From NCBI GenBank assembly GCA_913058495.1, contig CAJXQC010000006.1:62001-126000 (forward strand): 64,000 nt of DNA. Reading direction: 5' to 3'. Shown one piece after another: positions 40,668-59,663 of the stretch (its first letter is position 1; each line of letters opens with the position of its first letter). Under the pieces are notes generated by a model, which was not told the origin of the DNA, did not search any database, and saw nothing but the letters and a program-made list of their open reading frames with translations. The position numbers were made by a program, and so were the translations under genes. Source of the DNA: an uncultured Balneola sp. GTDB taxonomy: Bacteria; Bacteroidota; Rhodothermia; Balneolales; Balneolaceae.

Positions 40668-41372
40668 ATGGGTTATAAAACAGACAAAGAAAATTTGGCT
40701 ACTCAAATGCAGAATCTGTATTTGTTGGATAAGCTATTCAGGAAAGAAGGCTGTTCCTTTAAGGAAATAGTCGATGATATTCCAGGCATATTCCATACAA
40801 ATTATGTAGCGGATATGTCGATCGATAATATGAATAGAGAGGGAGAGGAATATTCTCAACTAACAAAAGAAGAAATTAATGAAATGGGCTTTGAATATTT
40901 TTTAGAATATGCCCATCCATATACTATTGAAGTTGTCGGTCCGCGATTCCAAAAATTCTATGAAGAAGCAGATGATGAAAAGGTTAAAGCAGATTTTCAA
41001 TTGATCAAAAATCCTAAAACCAATGAATATGATACATTTTTCACTGTAAGTAAGCCTTTTAAGGATAAAGAACTTTTGCTCACCACATCAAATCCGGTTG
41101 AAACTTTAGATTGGATAAGTACAAAGGTGGAACGGATTGCCGGCGAAGAAATATTTGTAAGAAAGCATTTTCGTCAGTTTCAGTCACTTACTATAAGAGA
41201 GCTCGAAATTCTAACCCTAATTGCACAAGGCAAAACAAATAGACGAATTTCAGATCAACTATTTATAAGTATTGCTACCGTTAAGCAACATCGCAAATTC
41301 ATAAAGAAAAAGACCGACTGCAAAAATACGGTAGAGTTAGTAAAATTTGCCCAAGCTTTTGATTTGATATGA
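40668..41372 (+). CDS. LuxR-type transcriptional regulator with PAS-like N-terminus, paralogue 1
   Basis: 234 residues. No receiver domain. The N-terminal 165 residues look like a PAS-type fold (DDIPGIFHTN... FTVSKPFKDKELLLTTSNP) and end in a short coiled helix. The C-terminal LuxR HTH (about residues 170-228) has LTIRELEILTLIAQGKTNRR and SIATVKQHRKFIKKK. Direct tandem paralogues follow at 41369 and 42083; the stop overlaps the next start (ATGA). Regulators of this plan are thought to sense small molecules directly or partner proteins. The cassette sits within the secreted-protein block and could control it. Confidence 0.88.
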   Translation: MGYKTDKENLATQMQNLYLLDKLFRKEGCSFKEIVDDIPGIFHTNYVADMSIDNMNREGEEYSQLTKEEINEMGFEYFLEYAHPYTIEVVGPRFQKFYEEADDEKVKADFQLIKNPKTNEYDTFFTVSKPFKDKELLLTTSNPVETLDWISTKVERIAGEEIFVRKHFRQFQSLTIRELEILTLIAQGKTNRRISDQLFISIATVKQHRKFIKKKTDCKNTVELVKFAQAFDLI

Positions 41373-42076
41373 GCTACCGTACTGATTTTGAAATATTGAT
41401 TGGGCAAAGAATTGATCTTTTAAGAATTGAAAAAGGAATAAAAGAACATGGTGATGATTGGCAGGACTTTTTGGATGATATTCCGGGCTTTGTTCATCTT
41501 AATAAGAAATCGGGAATTCTTGTTCACTATATAAATGAAACAGGAATTAAGGAGACAGGTTTTACAAATGTTGAATTAAATGAGATGGGTTATAATTATC
41601 AGGAAAATCATCTTGATCCTTTCACACTACATGTAACGGTTAAAAGTCTGGTGCCTTTTATAGAGAGAGATAATGACAATGAAATATTTACATTTTCACA
41701 GGGACATCGAAAAAGAGAAGAAAAAGAATTCGAACACATATATACAGCTACAAAGCCTTTAAGAGGTACTGATAATCTGATTTCTTATTCATTGCAACTC
41801 GATCAACTGGGTGAGTTATCAAAAAAAGTAGATCGGGTACTCGGTGAGTACAAGTTTATGCACCGCTATTTTTTGCATTATCAATCGCTCACACCAAGAG
41901 AAATTGAAGTATTAACATTTATTGCTCTTGGAGATACTAATAAAAGGATTTCAGAAAAACTATTTATTAGTAAAGCAACGGTTAAGCAACACAGAAAGAA
42001 TATTAAGAGAAAAATAGAATGTCGGAATATTTATGAATTGGTAAAGTTCGCTCAGGCTTTTGATTTGATTAAGTAG
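41369..42076 (+). CDS. LuxR-type transcriptional regulator with PAS-like N-terminus, paralogue 2
   Basis: 235 residues, starting inside the stop of paralogue 1 (ATGA). The N-terminal domain (DDIPGFVHLNKKSGILVHYI... ATKPLRGTDNLISYSL) is recognisably the same fold but the most diverged of the three, implying a different ligand. HTH: LTPREIEVLTFIALGDTNKR then SKATVKQHRKNIKRK. There is a 6-nt gap to paralogue 3. Confidence 0.88.
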   Translation: MSYRTDFEILIGQRIDLLRIEKGIKEHGDDWQDFLDDIPGFVHLNKKSGILVHYINETGIKETGFTNVELNEMGYNYQENHLDPFTLHVTVKSLVPFIERDNDNEIFTFSQGHRKREEKEFEHIYTATKPLRGTDNLISYSLQLDQLGELSKKVDRVLGEYKFMHRYFLHYQSLTPREIEVLTFIALGDTNKRISEKLFISKATVKQHRKNIKRKIECRNIYELVKFAQAFDLIK

Positions 42077-42082
42077 AATTAT

Positions 42083-42787
42083 ATGGGATATAAAACTGAA
42101 AAAGAACAACTGGAAAGTCAGGAACAAAGCTTATTTCTTTTGGACAAATTAATGACCAAAGAAAATAGTGATATAAAAGATCTTTTAGATTCACTTCCGG
42201 GAATATTTCATACTAATAGAATAGAAAATGTGGAATTGGTTCATCTTAATAAAAATGCTGAGAACTGGATTGACATGCTTACAGAAGATGTAAGAGAAGA
42301 AGGGGTAGCATTATTCGAAAAGATAATCCATCCGGACACGCTTAAATATACGACTCCAAGGTTTATTGAATTTGGGCAAACTGCAGGTGAGCATGAAATA
42401 TGCAGCGGATTTCAGGGAATTTGGAACCCAAAACTTGGCGAGTTTAAAATGTTTCTTACTTTTCTGAAAAAATATAAAGGAACAGATCTTTTACTTTGTG
42501 TCAGTAATCCTATCGAAAATGCCGGAGAGATTTCAGAGAAACTGGAAAAAGTAATTGGAGAAGAGGCATTTGTACGTAAGTATTTCAAAAAGTTTAAGCA
42601 ATTAACACCAAGAGAAGTTCAAATACTCACGCTAATTTCTGGTGGTGAAATCAACAAAATGATTGCTGACCGATTATTTATTAGCACAGCTACAGTAAAA
42701 CAACACAGGAAGAACATTAAAAGAAAGCTTGAAGTTAGAAATATTGTAGAAATGGTCAGGTATGCGCAAGCATTCGATCTAATATAG
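42083..42787 (+). CDS. LuxR-type transcriptional regulator with PAS-like N-terminus, paralogue 3
   Basis: 234 residues. N-terminus (DSLPGIFHTNRIENVELVHL... LTFLKKYKGTDLLLCVSNP) is closest to paralogue 1. HTH: LTPREVQILTLISGGEINKM then STATVKQHRKNIKRK. All three end in the same FAQAFDLI-type tail, which argues for tandem duplication of one ancestor. The recognition helices (ATVKQHRK) are identical, so they may compete for or co-occupy the same DNA site while sensing different inputs (inference). Confidence 0.88.
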   Translation: MGYKTEKEQLESQEQSLFLLDKLMTKENSDIKDLLDSLPGIFHTNRIENVELVHLNKNAENWIDMLTEDVREEGVALFEKIIHPDTLKYTTPRFIEFGQTAGEHEICSGFQGIWNPKLGEFKMFLTFLKKYKGTDLLLCVSNPIENAGEISEKLEKVIGEEAFVRKYFKKFKQLTPREVQILTLISGGEINKMIADRLFISTATVKQHRKNIKRKLEVRNIVEMVRYAQAFDLI

Positions 42788-42922
42788 CCGATCCCAAAAA
42801 TAACCACTTGTGGGTATTTACAAGCTCTATCCTCAAAATTAGTTTAACCGCACAGGTGTGTGGTGATTTTGAAAATTCAAAACATCATAATCTGCTATCA
42901 ACAAAAACTAATTCAGGGTACT

Positions 42923-43939
42923 ATGAAACGCTCAATTCTATTATTCGGCTTTTTCTTTTTAACAATATCTGCTTTCGGGCAAAATACATTAATCGTTGAT
43001 AATACCGGCAGCGCTCCAACCGGTGATCATATTTATACCAACTTACAAGATGCTATTGATGCTGCACAGGCAGGGGATGTGATACAGGTAATGCCGAGTC
43101 CAACACAAAATGGAAATATAAATTTAAATAGTAAAAATAATTTAACAATATCTGGTATAGGTATTAATCCTCAACTACTTGGAACACCAACTGCTGAAAG
43201 ATCCCAAGTTGGAAATATAGTTATAATAGGATCTTCCAATATTGTTTTAACTGGTTTTACTGGAGCTATCTTACAGGTTGCTAATGCAAGTGCTAGCAGC
43301 ACAGAATTGATACTCGATAAAATGCATATTACTGGTTTTACAATCGAATCTCTTTCTAACTCTGTTTTTCGAAATTCGTTTATAAATACAAGCGCTAACA
43401 GTAAAATAGAATCTCCTGCTTCAGGTATTCAATTTGTTAATTGTATTGTAACAGGTGTTTTTCCATCTATTCATAACACTAATTTCACAAACAACATTAT
43501 ATACAGTTACAACAGTGTTGTTTCAAATAACATTTTGAATTCAGTATTTCGAAATAACATAATTATTTCTAATAATCAGTTTACAACGAATCCATCAAAT
43601 TCTGATAATTCAGTATATGAATTTAATTATTCGGAAAATCCATTACCAACTTCTGGTACTAATGCAGGAACTGGTAATATTGGTACTTTAACTGGAACAC
43701 TTTTCGTTGATTCAAATATTGATTTTAATACTCCATGGAATAGAATTTGGAGACCTGAGCTTGGGTCTAATAATTTAATAGATGCAGGCAAAGATGGCAC
43801 TAATATTGGACCAACCGGTGGTTCATCACCATACAAACTTGATTCTAGTCCTCTACCATTTATCAAGGACTTGATAGCACCTATCACAATAAAAAAAGGC
43901 ACAGACACAGAAGTCACCATCAAAGCAAAAGGCAACTAA
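42923..43939 (+). CDS. Secreted small beta-helix protein (338 aa)
   Basis: Start taken at ATG 42923 (AGGG upstream, then a signal peptide MKRSILLFGFFFLTISAFGQ). An earlier TTG-initiated form would put 21 extra residues before the signal. The mature part opens with the GDHIYTNLQDAIDAAQAGDVI segment typical of secreted beta-helix proteins, followed by short Asn-rich rungs (NNIIYSYNSVVSNNILNSVF). It ends IKKGTDTEVTIKAKGN without a T9SS sorting domain, unlike its neighbours. A substrate or partner cannot be assigned. Confidence 0.8.
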   Translation: MKRSILLFGFFFLTISAFGQNTLIVDNTGSAPTGDHIYTNLQDAIDAAQAGDVIQVMPSPTQNGNINLNSKNNLTISGIGINPQLLGTPTAERSQVGNIVIIGSSNIVLTGFTGAILQVANASASSTELILDKMHITGFTIESLSNSVFRNSFINTSANSKIESPASGIQFVNCIVTGVFPSIHNTNFTNNIIYSYNSVVSNNILNSVFRNNIIISNNQFTTNPSNSDNSVYEFNYSENPLPTSGTNAGTGNIGTLTGTLFVDSNIDFNTPWNRIWRPELGSNNLIDAGKDGTNIGPTGGSSPYKLDSSPLPFIKDLIAPITIKKGTDTEVTIKAKGN

Positions 43940-43976
43940 GCCTCTTATCTAATTTTCATTCAAAAAGAGGTTTATT

Positions 43977-46900
43977 ATGCGATCATTCAATGTTTTAGGA
44001 TCATTACGCAGTCACTCAGAGCAAGTCTGTTGGAGCGTAAGCAGAGACGGACGCAGCGAAGAGTCTGCACAAACGGTTACTTGGCAGGAAAAGATTGTGC
44101 AGATCCTTCGCAAGTATGCTCAAGATGACATCTTAAAAAGCGTTCACTTATGGGTTGTATTACTGGTGTTTATTAGCGGGAATATTCAGGCACAAAACAT
44201 ATCAGAATTAGAATATTTCTTTAATGCCGATCCCGGTGTGGGAGCAGCAACTTCTATTTCATCTTTTACAAATGATTCAGAAATTACATTTACCGGAGAT
44301 ATTACTACTTCGGGTTTAGAAAATGGAATTCATACCCTGTTTATTCGTGCTAAAAATTCGGATGAAGAGTGGGGGCTTCCCATAAAAAAACTGGTATTGG
44401 TAGATGCCGGAGAAGTTTTAGAAATAGATCAAATGGAATATTTCTTTAATGAAGATCCGGGTGTAGGTTTGGCGAATACCCTTTCTGTGACTTCATCTGC
44501 AGAAATTAATCTTACAACCGATTTAGCAACTTCATCTCTTACTAATGGAATTCATACGTTATTCATTCGTGCAAAAGCCAATGGTGGAGGCTGGGGACTT
44601 CCAATAAAAAAATTAATACTTGTAGATAAAGACGATCCTAATTCTGTAAGTATAATCACTGAAGCGGAGTATTTCATAGATGCTGATCCCGGTTTTGGAA
44701 ATGGAACTTCTATTGATCTTGCCGATGGTTCAGAAATTGAAGAAAGTGTGACAATAAATACTTCAGATTTATCAGAAGGCTCTTACATAGCTTATATCAG
44801 AGTAAAAGATGAAGACGGGGAATGGAGCTTAATTGCTAAACAAGCTTTTGAGGTAGTAGATCCTTTAATTACCATTGCAGAAGCTCGCAGCTTAGATAAT
44901 GGAACAGAAGTTACGGTGAAAGGGGTAATCACCAGAACTTCCGAAAATTTCGTTTACCTGCAGCAAGATCAGAATGCTCTCATGATCTTTAGTAATGAAG
45001 GCTCCAGTCCCGACTTCTTTAGTTTTCTACAAAGTGATTCCTTAAATGCAGGAGATTCTTTATTGGTAACAGGTTCTTTAGAGGAGTTTGAAGGACTAAA
45101 AGAAATATTAGATGTAACGGAATACTCAGTGATTTCTTCAGGTAATCCATTACCGGCTTCTCAAGAAATAACATTGACTGAAGCAATAAATAACGCCGAA
45201 AACTACGAAAGCGAAATTGTATACATCCGAGATTTAGAGTTCATTGACGGAGCTTCCGGTACTTTTACTGGAGCGACACGTTACACGGTTCAAAAAGCAG
45301 GAACGGATACCACATACAGATTTTTCGTTCACGGTCCCGGTAACAGTGATTTGGCGGGGGAAACAATTCCTCAAACTACATTTGATTACGAGGGAATAAT
45401 CAAAGAAATAAGCGATGGAGATACAGGTACGCATCATGTACTGGCACCACACAATCCTACTGATATAACCAATATTGCGGCCCCGGTTTATCCTACCATA
45501 GCAGAGATCCGGGAATTACCTTTAGGAGAAATTGTAACTGCTAAAGCATTGGTTACAAGAGCAAAAGGAAGATTCGCTTATATCCAACAGGATACAGCGG
45601 CTGTAAACTTGTTCAACTCAAGCGGTGTATTTTTTAATGCCGTTGCTGATGGTACGGTACAATCAGGAGATTCAGTTCTGGTTACCGGAGAAGTTTCCGA
45701 GTTTGAAGGTCTTCGGCAACTCAATAATGTGACAGATTTTCAAGTAATATCTTCCGGAAATGACTTACCCGAACCTGTTTTATTAACTATGGACGAACTG
45801 GTTTCGTCCGGTTATAAATATCAAGCTGAGCTTATAAAAGTAGATAGTTTATTTATAACTGAGTCATCAACGTTCAATTTAGGAGTTGGGTATGAAGTTT
45901 TACAAAAAAACAGTTCATCTTCAGCTCAATTATATGTACCAACAGGTGGGGATACTGAAATTGGAGGGTTAACGATTCCGGCTTTGTTCAACTACGAAGG
46001 GATTCTGGGACAGTTTGACTCGGAAGACACCGGATCAGGTCATCAGATTAGGCCTATTAACCTTACAGATATTATTGAACTTGAGCCTGCAATTGAAGTT
46101 GATTCACTTGAAATTACTTTCAAAGTAGATATGTCTGTTCAAGTTGATAAAGGGAACTTTAATCCGGATTCAATGAACGCACAATTGGCAGGAAGTTTTA
46201 CCGGATGGAGCACTCCTGTTGATATGCAAAATATCGGTGATAACAAATACGACATAACTCAAAGTTTTATAGATCCAATCCCCGGTGATACCATATTCTA
46301 TAAATTCGTTTATACAAAAGCTGATTCTATCGTTTATGAAGATCCCAATCCCGACATCTCACCGGTTGCAAAAGAATTTAACAATAGATTCTATGTGTTT
46401 ACAGGTACTGAAGCGGATACTGATGGAGATGACATTAAAGATGTAGTGTTGGATCGGGTGCTTTTTAGTGATGATGATGGTAGTGTACCTATAGATTCAG
46501 TGATAAGACTTTCAATAGAAACTGTTAATGCGTTTATAACAGATACCATTGAAATTCCGATTCAAATTACCGGCTTAGGAGATTTACCAATGAGTTCTTT
46601 TGAACTGGCAATTAATTTTGATCCTGCTTTAATGGATTTAGAATTATCTGATAATACTGAGTCGTTAACATCTGATTTTTTGGTTGAATCAAATAAAACA
46701 ATTCCGGGAAAGATCGTAATATCTGGAGCATCTACTTCAAGTGTAAATTCAGATGGGGATTTGCTTTTCCTTAATATCTATCCTCAAGCCTCCGGAGAAG
46801 GATCTATTGAAGTTGAAAAACTAACAATTAATGAAGATGGAGAACTAATAAATCCAACACTAAGTCTAGTCAATATAATTGAAAGGGTTTGTGGTGATGT

Positions 46901-47738
46901 AACCGATGACAGGACTATAAGTACTTTGGATGCAACTTTTGTTTTGAGACATACTGTGTTTCTTTCTCCGCAGTATCCATTATCAGGTCTGGATTCAGTA
47001 GCAGCTGATGTTACAGGAAACGGAGATATCAGTGCATTTGATGCTTCAAGAATTCTTCAGTTTGAAGTCGGATTTATAGATGAATTGGGCTGTAATACTG
47101 TTGTATCAAAAAAAGAACCACTTTTTACAAAGGCTCTATGGCATAAAGTTGAAAAAGAAGATGAAGTACTTGTTACGATAGATATTTCAAACAATGACTT
47201 TGATATTTATTCAGCTCAATTTGATTTGAAAATTGAGGAAGGGTTGTCATTCAATCGCTTAAATAATAAACCCTCAAACTGGCAAACTCTAATCAATAAT
47301 AGAGAGGGGTCAACTCTGGTATCTATGTTTGGTGTGCAACCACTTGAATCTAAATCTCTGGAACTTGTGTTAACCAAAGATCAACGTTCATTGAATGCAA
47401 AAGTTAATGCAAACGTTATCCTAAACGAGAGTGAGTTGTATAAGCTGAATGAATTGTTAGTAAATACATTACCGGATGAATTTAATTTAAAACAAAACTA
47501 TCCTAACCCATTCAATCCAAGTACAAATATTGAATATTCCTTACCTGAGCAGGCAAATGTAACTCTCACTATCTACAATATGCTCGGGCAAAAAGTAGCA
47601 ACCTTGGTTAATGAAGCATTAGCAGCAGGTACGTATAACCAAACTTGGGATGCGAGTTCAGTTTCAAGTGGTGTTTATTTCTACCGCTTAAAAGCTGGAA
47701 ATAAAATATTTACTAAACGAATGCTACTTGTTAAATAA
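43977..47738 (+). CDS. T9SS-secreted protein with cohesin-like and dockerin-like domains; N-terminus contains a palindromic repeat (1253 aa)
   Basis: ATG 43977 with AGAGG 6 nt upstream. Residues 11-51 are translated from an intergenic-type palindrome (44011-44129), which pushes the hydrophobic signal core (LWVVLLVFISGNIQAQ) to residues 58-73. Then: three EYFFNADPGVG-type repeats (about residues 77-300), two OB-fold-like domains (about 300-480 and 515-690; VTVKGVITRTSENFVYLQQD), a starch-binding-like domain (FKVDMSVQVDKGNFNPDSMN... LAGSFTGW), a cohesin-like domain (about 845-975), a dockerin-like pair (CGDVTDDRTISTLDAT and AADVTGNGDISAFDAS), a further sandwich domain, and a T9SS sorting domain ([19 protein letters not shown]). 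It holds both cohesin-like and dockerin-like modules. Whether the long N-terminus still permits export is uncertain; no alternative ATG or TTG exists before the signal core, only a GTG at 44097. Confidence 0.82.
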   Translation: MRSFNVLGSLRSHSEQVCWSVSRDGRSEESAQTVTWQEKIVQILRKYAQDDILKSVHLWVVLLVFISGNIQAQNISELEYFFNADPGVGAATSISSFTNDSEITFTGDITTSGLENGIHTLFIRAKNSDEEWGLPIKKLVLVDAGEVLEIDQMEYFFNEDPGVGLANTLSVTSSAEINLTTDLATSSLTNGIHTLFIRAKANGGGWGLPIKKLILVDKDDPNSVSIITEAEYFIDADPGFGNGTSIDLADGSEIEESVTINTSDLSEGSYIAYIRVKDEDGEWSLIAKQAFEVVDPLITIAEARSLDNGTEVTVKGVITRTSENFVYLQQDQNALMIFSNEGSSPDFFSFLQSDSLNAGDSLLVTGSLEEFEGLKEILDVTEYSVISSGNPLPASQEITLTEAINNAENYESEIVYIRDLEFIDGASGTFTGATRYTVQKAGTDTTYRFFVHGPGNSDLAGETIPQTTFDYEGIIKEISDGDTGTHHVLAPHNPTDITNIAAPVYPTIAEIRELPLGEIVTAKALVTRAKGRFAYIQQDTAAVNLFNSSGVFFNAVADGTVQSGDSVLVTGEVSEFEGLRQLNNVTDFQVISSGNDLPEPVLLTMDELVSSGYKYQAELIKVDSLFITESSTFNLGVGYEVLQKNSSSSAQLYVPTGGDTEIGGLTIPALFNYEGILGQFDSEDTGSGHQIRPINLTDIIELEPAIEVDSLEITFKVDMSVQVDKGNFNPDSMNAQLAGSFTGWSTPVDMQNIGDNKYDITQSFIDPIPGDTIFYKFVYTKADSIVYEDPNPDISPVAKEFNNRFYVFTGTEADTDGDDIKDVVLDRVLFSDDDGSVPIDSVIRLSIETVNAFITDTIEIPIQITGLGDLPMSSFELAINFDPALMDLELSDNTESLTSDFLVESNKTIPGKIVISGASTSSVNSDGDLLFLNIYPQASGEGSIEVEKLTINEDGELINPTLSLVNIIERVCGDVTDDRTISTLDATFVLRHTVFLSPQYPLSGLDSVAADVTGNGDISAFDASRILQFEVGFIDELGCNTVVSKKEPLFTKALWHKVEKEDEVLVTIDISNNDFDIYSAQFDLKIEEGLSFNRLNNKPSNWQTLINNREGSTLVSMFGVQPLESKSLELVLTKDQRSLNAKVNANVILNESELYKLNELLVNTLPDEFNLKQNYPNPFNPSTNIEYSLPEQANVTLTIYNMLGQKVATLVNEALAAGTYNQTWDASSVSSGVYFYRLKAGNKIFTKRMLLVK
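44011..44129. repeat. Palindromic intergenic element read in frame inside a coding region
   Basis: Inner arms GCGAAGAGTCTGCACAA (44056-44072) and TTGTGCAGATCCTTCGC (44095-44111) are inverted repeats with a 2-base mismatch. Outer ends GTCA....GAGC (44011-44022) and GCTC....TGAC (44118-44129) also pair. It resembles the GTCATTCTGAG...GCGAAG(A)ATCT-type elements at 56752 and 59566. Confidence 0.75.
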
Positions 47739-56751: not shown

Positions 56752-56843
56752 AAGTCATTCTGAGGCTACTGCCGAAGAATCTACACAGTTTAATTTTTCT
56801 ACTTAAGAGAAATTCTTTCTTCGTCGGGAGTGATCAGAATGAT
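56752..56843. repeat. Palindromic intergenic element, copy 2
   Basis: Left arm GTCATTCTGAGGCTACTGCC plus GAAGAATCT; right arm TTCTTCGTC...CAGAATGAT. Same family as the element inside the gene at 43977. The right end overlaps the 3' end of the minus-strand lipoprotein gene. Confidence 0.72.
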
Positions 56844-59565: not shown

Positions 59566-59663
59566 GTCATTACGCTGTGAGTGCCAGACTTCAGAATATT
59601 GAACTATAAGAGTTGGTTTAGTAAATGATTGTATAGATCCTTCGCAGGTGTGTTCAGGATGAC
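59566..59663. repeat. Palindromic intergenic element, copy 3
   Basis: Left end GTCATTACGCTGTGAG (59566-59581), right end AGATCCTTCGCAGG...CAGGATGAC (59635-59663). The right arm matches the element in the gene at 43977 well; the left arm is more decayed. Confidence 0.6.

Follow-up and report, generated by a model that had tools for sequence, protein, structure and literature searches.

In-frame insertion of palindromic sequences into genes is already known from Rickettsia, Coxiella and many genomes bearing REP elements. Palindromic elements of Rickettsia (RPEs) were found inserted in frame in protein genes, in some cases at the N-terminus, and nearly half of the RPEs reside in genes, as stated in a summary of the work of Ogata et al. 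2000, 2002 (PMC10969869). CGTC-tagged REPs occur in Bacteroidetes and Chlorobi without a linked transposase, and some of their copies are located in ORFs, N-termini included (Di Nocera et al. 2013; PMC3733652). Coxiella harbours QMITE1 and QMITE2, small non-autonomous palindromic elements that overlap ORFs or lie in them in frame; the sections of the report dealing with these elements describe no signal-peptide case (PMC5896051).

The DNA analyzed here (the window) is a stretch of 64,000 nucleotides from an uncultured Balneola sp. An earlier note, made from the sequence alone, had described an imperfect palindrome at 44011-44129, translated without a stop in a secreted protein. These coordinates proved exact: the palindrome runs from GTCACTCAGAGC, starting at 44011, to ...CTCAAGATGAC, ending at 44129, and contains the inner arms GCGAAGAGTCTGCACAA / TTGTGCAGATCCTTCGC; its fold has z = -4.1 compared to dinucleotide shuffles. 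The ORF 43977-47738 indeed crosses the palindrome without a stop, and residues 12-51 of its 1253-amino acid product come from it. The palindrome is an inverted dimer of a dispersed unit of ~34 nt. Its relatives were searched with a covariance model (R1) constructed from 12 intergenic units, the 44011-44129 element being excluded. Features of the window are given below, with G000 denoting the 3.4-Mb genome that contains it and G017 a Balneolaceae MAG of another genus (JAEPNO010000001.1).

42860..43939, + strand: upstream gene, signal-bearing; syntenic in G017 and at the loci of a 472-amino acid paralogue
43964..43979, + strand: Shine-Dalgarno-like sequence and start codon, AGAGGTTTATTATG (sequence, nucleotide alignment)
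43977..47738, + strand: host gene, 1253-amino acid protein (ORF)
44011..44071, + strand: 5' unit of the dimer, long-loop form, encoding HSEQVCWSVSRDGRSEESA; R1 match G000:C6:106011-106071, E=1.5e-6
44096..44129, - strand: 3' unit of the dimer, inverted, encoding VQILRKYAQDD on the + strand; R1 match G000:C6:106096-106129, E=2.7e-11
44097..44099, + strand: in-frame GTG inside the 3' unit, possible alternative start, with AGGAAAAGATT upstream (sequence)
44130..44195, + strand: signal peptide core and cleavage region, ILKSVHLWVVLLVFISGNIQAQ, 22 codons (codon alignment with G017)
56754..56787, + strand: intergenic R1 unit, E=1.6e-12
59630..59663, - strand: intergenic R1 unit, E=2.9e-11

The 1253-amino acid protein has repeated ELEYFFNADPG segments and matches the domains Por_Secre_tail (E=3e-14), Cohesin (1.6e-7) and Dockerin_1 (3.6e-6). 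Its C-terminal sorting domain (TIGR04183, E=3.2e-15) marks it as a predicted type IX-secreted protein. The product of the upstream gene ends in VTIKAKGN; no Pfam match was found for this gene. A hairpin at 43930-43975 (AAGCCTCTT...AAGAGGTTTA) pairs the stop-codon region of the upstream gene with the Shine-Dalgarno sequence of the gene starting at 43977, an analogous hairpin being predicted in G017; this looks like translational coupling. A signal-bearing gene together with a gene for an ELEYFFxxDPG protein occurs twice in G000 (window 41369-47738 and G000:C1:113800-116000), as the long form and the 472-amino acid form. In the window, as well as at the 472-amino acid loci of two further genomes (G001 and G006), LuxR-type regulator genes lie directly upstream.

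Copies from G000 have the unit GTCATYCTGAG..CGAAGRATCTGCACA and mostly consist of two units in inverted orientation. Among the 12 intergenic units, the stem ATYC/GRAT and the inner GS/SC pair showed covariation, with 8 compensatory cells and none of 500 shuffles as high. The R1 search of the whole G000 genome yielded 46 units in 31 places (E<0.01), the genome-wide count that the earlier note had proposed, and recovered both halves of the excluded element. In the R1 test the window element showed the family pattern GTCAYYC..GARGRATCTGCACA with the stem ATYC/GRAT and the GS/SC pair, and thus belongs to a dispersed palindrome family of the Balneolaceae, present in 11 of the 39 genomes searched and in several genera. 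A resemblance to two intergenic elements at 56752-56843 and 59566-59663 had also been reported. This is correct for one significant R1 unit in each; the second arm is too degenerate for R1. No Rfam family matched within the window, and the literal terminal sequence of the element had no match in the relevant papers. A link between the repeats and a REP-type tyrosine transposase was looked for but not found: ten Y1_Tnp loci contained no R1 unit, and none of the Y1_Tnp places in G000 is near an R1 unit. The 5' unit of the window copy is a member of a long-loop subclass with a nested extra hairpin, found also at G000:C1:189741-189858, G000:C6:141643, G001:C7:35234, G006:C15:111848 and G003:C62:97427. 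In G017 an array of inverted dimers spaced mostly by 234-295 nt is located at C48:86800-96800, largely duplicated some 5 kb away.

The family resembles the CGTC-tagged REPs in its GTC tag, a stem beginning with AT, head-to-head type dimers and the absence of transposase linkage (PMC3733652). However, these REPs have a continuous stem of 8-9 bp, a loop of 4-5 nt and a CCA tail, whereas R1 units have an outer stem of 4-5 bp followed by a 2x2 internal loop and 2 bp, loops of 3 to 30+ nt and a CTGCACA-like tail. GTC itself is always present. The base before it is A (5' end) or T (3' end) in the window copy and A in most others, compared to CGTC (or TGTC/CCTC) in the tagged REPs. Because stem, loop and tail depart from the definition, R1 was not assigned to this class. 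The Coxiella QMITEs differ in having 150-400 bp and direct repeats, and QMITE2 carries a GTAG REP, according to the sections describing them (PMC5896051). The parallel with Rickettsia suggested in the earlier note holds in that a dispersed palindrome occupies a gene in frame and gives rise to an added peptide, as summarized for RPEs (PMC10969869), but Rickettsia is not the sole precedent. Unlike RPEs, nearly half of which are in genes by that same summary, the Balneolaceae family has, in G000, one of 31 places in a gene, a single case in that genome instead of a recurrent one, and it belongs to another bacterial phylum. What sets the present case apart is its place before a Sec signal, its persistence across genera, its uniqueness in each genome and the low divergence of the element DNA. 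Long N-terminal segments before an ordinary Sec core are also found in type V secreted proteins, as extended signal peptide regions. Those regions are a conserved motif of their own and not derived from a repeat, whereas the segment of the window protein is repeat-derived and precedes a protein of the putative type IX route.

Among the 31 places in G000, examined by means of genome stretches and ORF lists, only 44011-44129 is contained in an ORF of substantial size. Of the remaining units, one overlaps a 134-amino acid antisense ORF, which looks spurious, and another touches the last 5 nt of an ORF. Intergenic copies often end shortly upstream of a start codon. In G017, likewise, the copy in the orthologue is the only one in an ORF among the units checked; frequent residence in genes, as in RPEs, was thus found in neither genome. 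Apparent in-gene copies at two loci (L107 and L148) were rejected as coordinate artefacts, the units lying outside those ORFs, and two weak R1 matches inside ORFs (G000 C13:59702 and C29:13047) were rejected as chance, with E above 0.2. Stop-free frames are uncommon in the other intergenic dimers (13 of 90). The window dimer has exactly one, which is the gene's own frame; its nearest subfamily members have in that frame a TGA within the long loop, absent from the window copy. These results bear out the view that an intergenic-type element separates, in frame, the gene's own start from its signal core.

A close long relative of the 1253-amino acid protein was found, among 92 Balneolaceae genomes, only in G017 (58 % identity). 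This orthologue has the same upstream gene and a sorting-like C-terminus; its N-terminus is MDTYYLYGHSERSEEPSQHQTLQRMALQILRKFVLDDLKKK and the protein begins MDTYYLYGHSERSEEPSQHQTLQRMALQILRKFVLDDLKKKLSY.... Long N-termini without palindromic character throughout the orthologues had been named in the earlier note as counting against an insertion. The opposite was observed: the N-terminus of the one true orthologue is long and itself palindromic. Both units were recognized there in a search of the whole genome, in frame and at the same place (E=9.9e-6 and 1.2e-3), with a fold of z=-2.7. In both genes exactly 22 codons separate the end of the element from the start of the mature protein. A 13-nt start, GAGGTTTATTATG, is common to both in the nucleotide alignment and lies outside the element, as had been said of the window's AGAGGTTTATTATG, the G017 counterpart of which is kept as GGAGGTTTATTATG. 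Translated from the upstream ATG, the element would add about 40 residues in G000 and 29 in G017; its length changes between the lineages are 12 and 30 nt, with frame and openness kept. The 472-amino acid paralogue of Balneola species, including that of G000, starts MKFLANVLLVMLLASPLMGQ and lacks the element. In the tree the two long proteins pair (88/91), beside the 472-amino acid group. A third element-bearing orthologue was found neither among 129 genomes of the order nor in GTDB contigs, leaving two in the genomes searched.

We consider the following history probable. Before the window gene and its G017 orthologue diverged, an inverted dimer of a REP-like, non-autonomous palindromic repeat, dispersed between Balneolaceae genes, would have entered the ancestral gene in frame, downstream of the start codon region and ahead of the hydrophobic Sec signal core. 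With the gene's own Shine-Dalgarno sequence and ATG kept, the ribosome would translate the element as part of an unusually long n-region of the signal. The element-derived residues would presumably be cleaved off together with the signal peptide, leaving the mature protein unaffected, which would explain why the in-gene copy survived while the other copies checked are intergenic.

The likeliest course appears to be a single ancient insertion downstream of the start codon that stayed in frame in the two lineages; one insertion was judged more likely than two from the identity of gene, orientation, frame, 22-codon distance and GAGGTTTATTATG start. It is improbable that related dimers inserted separately at one site, a target hot spot, in two lineages. 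Such separate events would account for the 5' unit having the long-loop Balneola form in the window and a short loop in G017, each of which is also represented by other family members. In matched stretches the identity of the units is 84 %, compared to about 65 % for the mature coding sequence, as expected of recent copies of a family consensus, and unit by unit the two in-gene copies resemble each other no more closely than they do some other copies. However, the only in-gene copy of each genome would then have to share gene, orientation, frame and the 22-codon distance by coincidence, and no G017 unit other than the 3' unit of this gene copy has the CTTGCGA loop. That the 5' units share the ACTC/GAGT form was rejected as a mark of common descent, since this form is common in both genomes. 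Even with one insertion, translation might begin inside the 3' unit: in the window at GTG 44097, in G017 at the ATG within RMALQILRK, which is the nearest start in frame there and precedes the window's GTG by two codons in the alignment. Most of the element would then be 5' untranslated sequence, its 3' arm forming the n-region of a signal peptide of normal length (MQILRKYAQDDILKSVHLWVV... / MALQILRKFVLDDLKKKLSYIII...). This is rather unlikely, although in-frame starts at nearly the same place in both genes would give signal peptides of 33 and 35 residues, AGGA lies 7 nt before the window's GTG, and intergenic copies often end close upstream of start codons. Many REPs at annotated N-termini have moreover been argued to be untranslated (Di Nocera et al.; PMC3733652). 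On the other hand, the two genera share the upstream GAGGTTTATTATG, each with an open frame behind it, 40 open codons have a P of about 0.06 under random composition, the G017 ATG lacks a Shine-Dalgarno-like sequence, and the two internal starts stand at different codons. Because the Shine-Dalgarno sequence and ATG are conserved, the frame is open in both genes and the upstream hairpin fits translational coupling, the start at ATG 43977 appears clearly favoured over an internal one.

The divergence between the two in-gene copies bears on what the element may do. Its units differ at 15/69 nt, fewer than the mature domain (236/666, P=0.023) and the signal core (38/66, P=2e-5), and third positions differ in 6/23 codons of the units vs 118/222 of the mature domain (Fisher P=0.016). 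Differences per codon position within the element are flat (8/9/9); purifying selection on its peptide is therefore not seen. The low divergence would be explained by constraint on DNA or RNA, or by gene conversion from dispersed copies. The element might be retained for an RNA hairpin close behind the start codon, modulating translation or mRNA stability, with the peptide being incidental. The stable folds in both genomes and the third-position deficit, which suggests constraint beyond the amino acids, agree with this. But the loss in G017 of the inner 10-bp stem of the window copy (TCTGCACAA/TTGTGCAGA) counts against a strict RNA role, compensatory pairs were not observed, and gene conversion would yield the same excess identity in this comparison of two sequences, which makes such a hairpin role distinctly unlikely. 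Similarly doubtful is co-option of the element, its product or hairpin serving as a lengthened n-region or a translational control segment for a type IX-secreted protein; if true, it would account for the in-frame retention in two genera and for the lower divergence of the element than of the flanking coding DNA.

Under the preferred history of one ancestral insertion translated from ATG 43977, the locus documents by clean comparison, outside Rickettsia, an intergenic-type palindrome that became part of a translated gene and stayed there in two genera. It suggests one way in which insertions may survive, namely in a segment cut off with the signal peptide. The locus also lends itself to testing how far a Sec n-region may be lengthened and whether gene conversion keeps dispersed in-gene palindromes similar. 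More abundant in G000 is a second short palindrome, with ends GTCATCCTGAAC, which appears to be a related repeat in monomeric form; it occurs on many contigs, with about 40 exact matches, many of them near contig ends.
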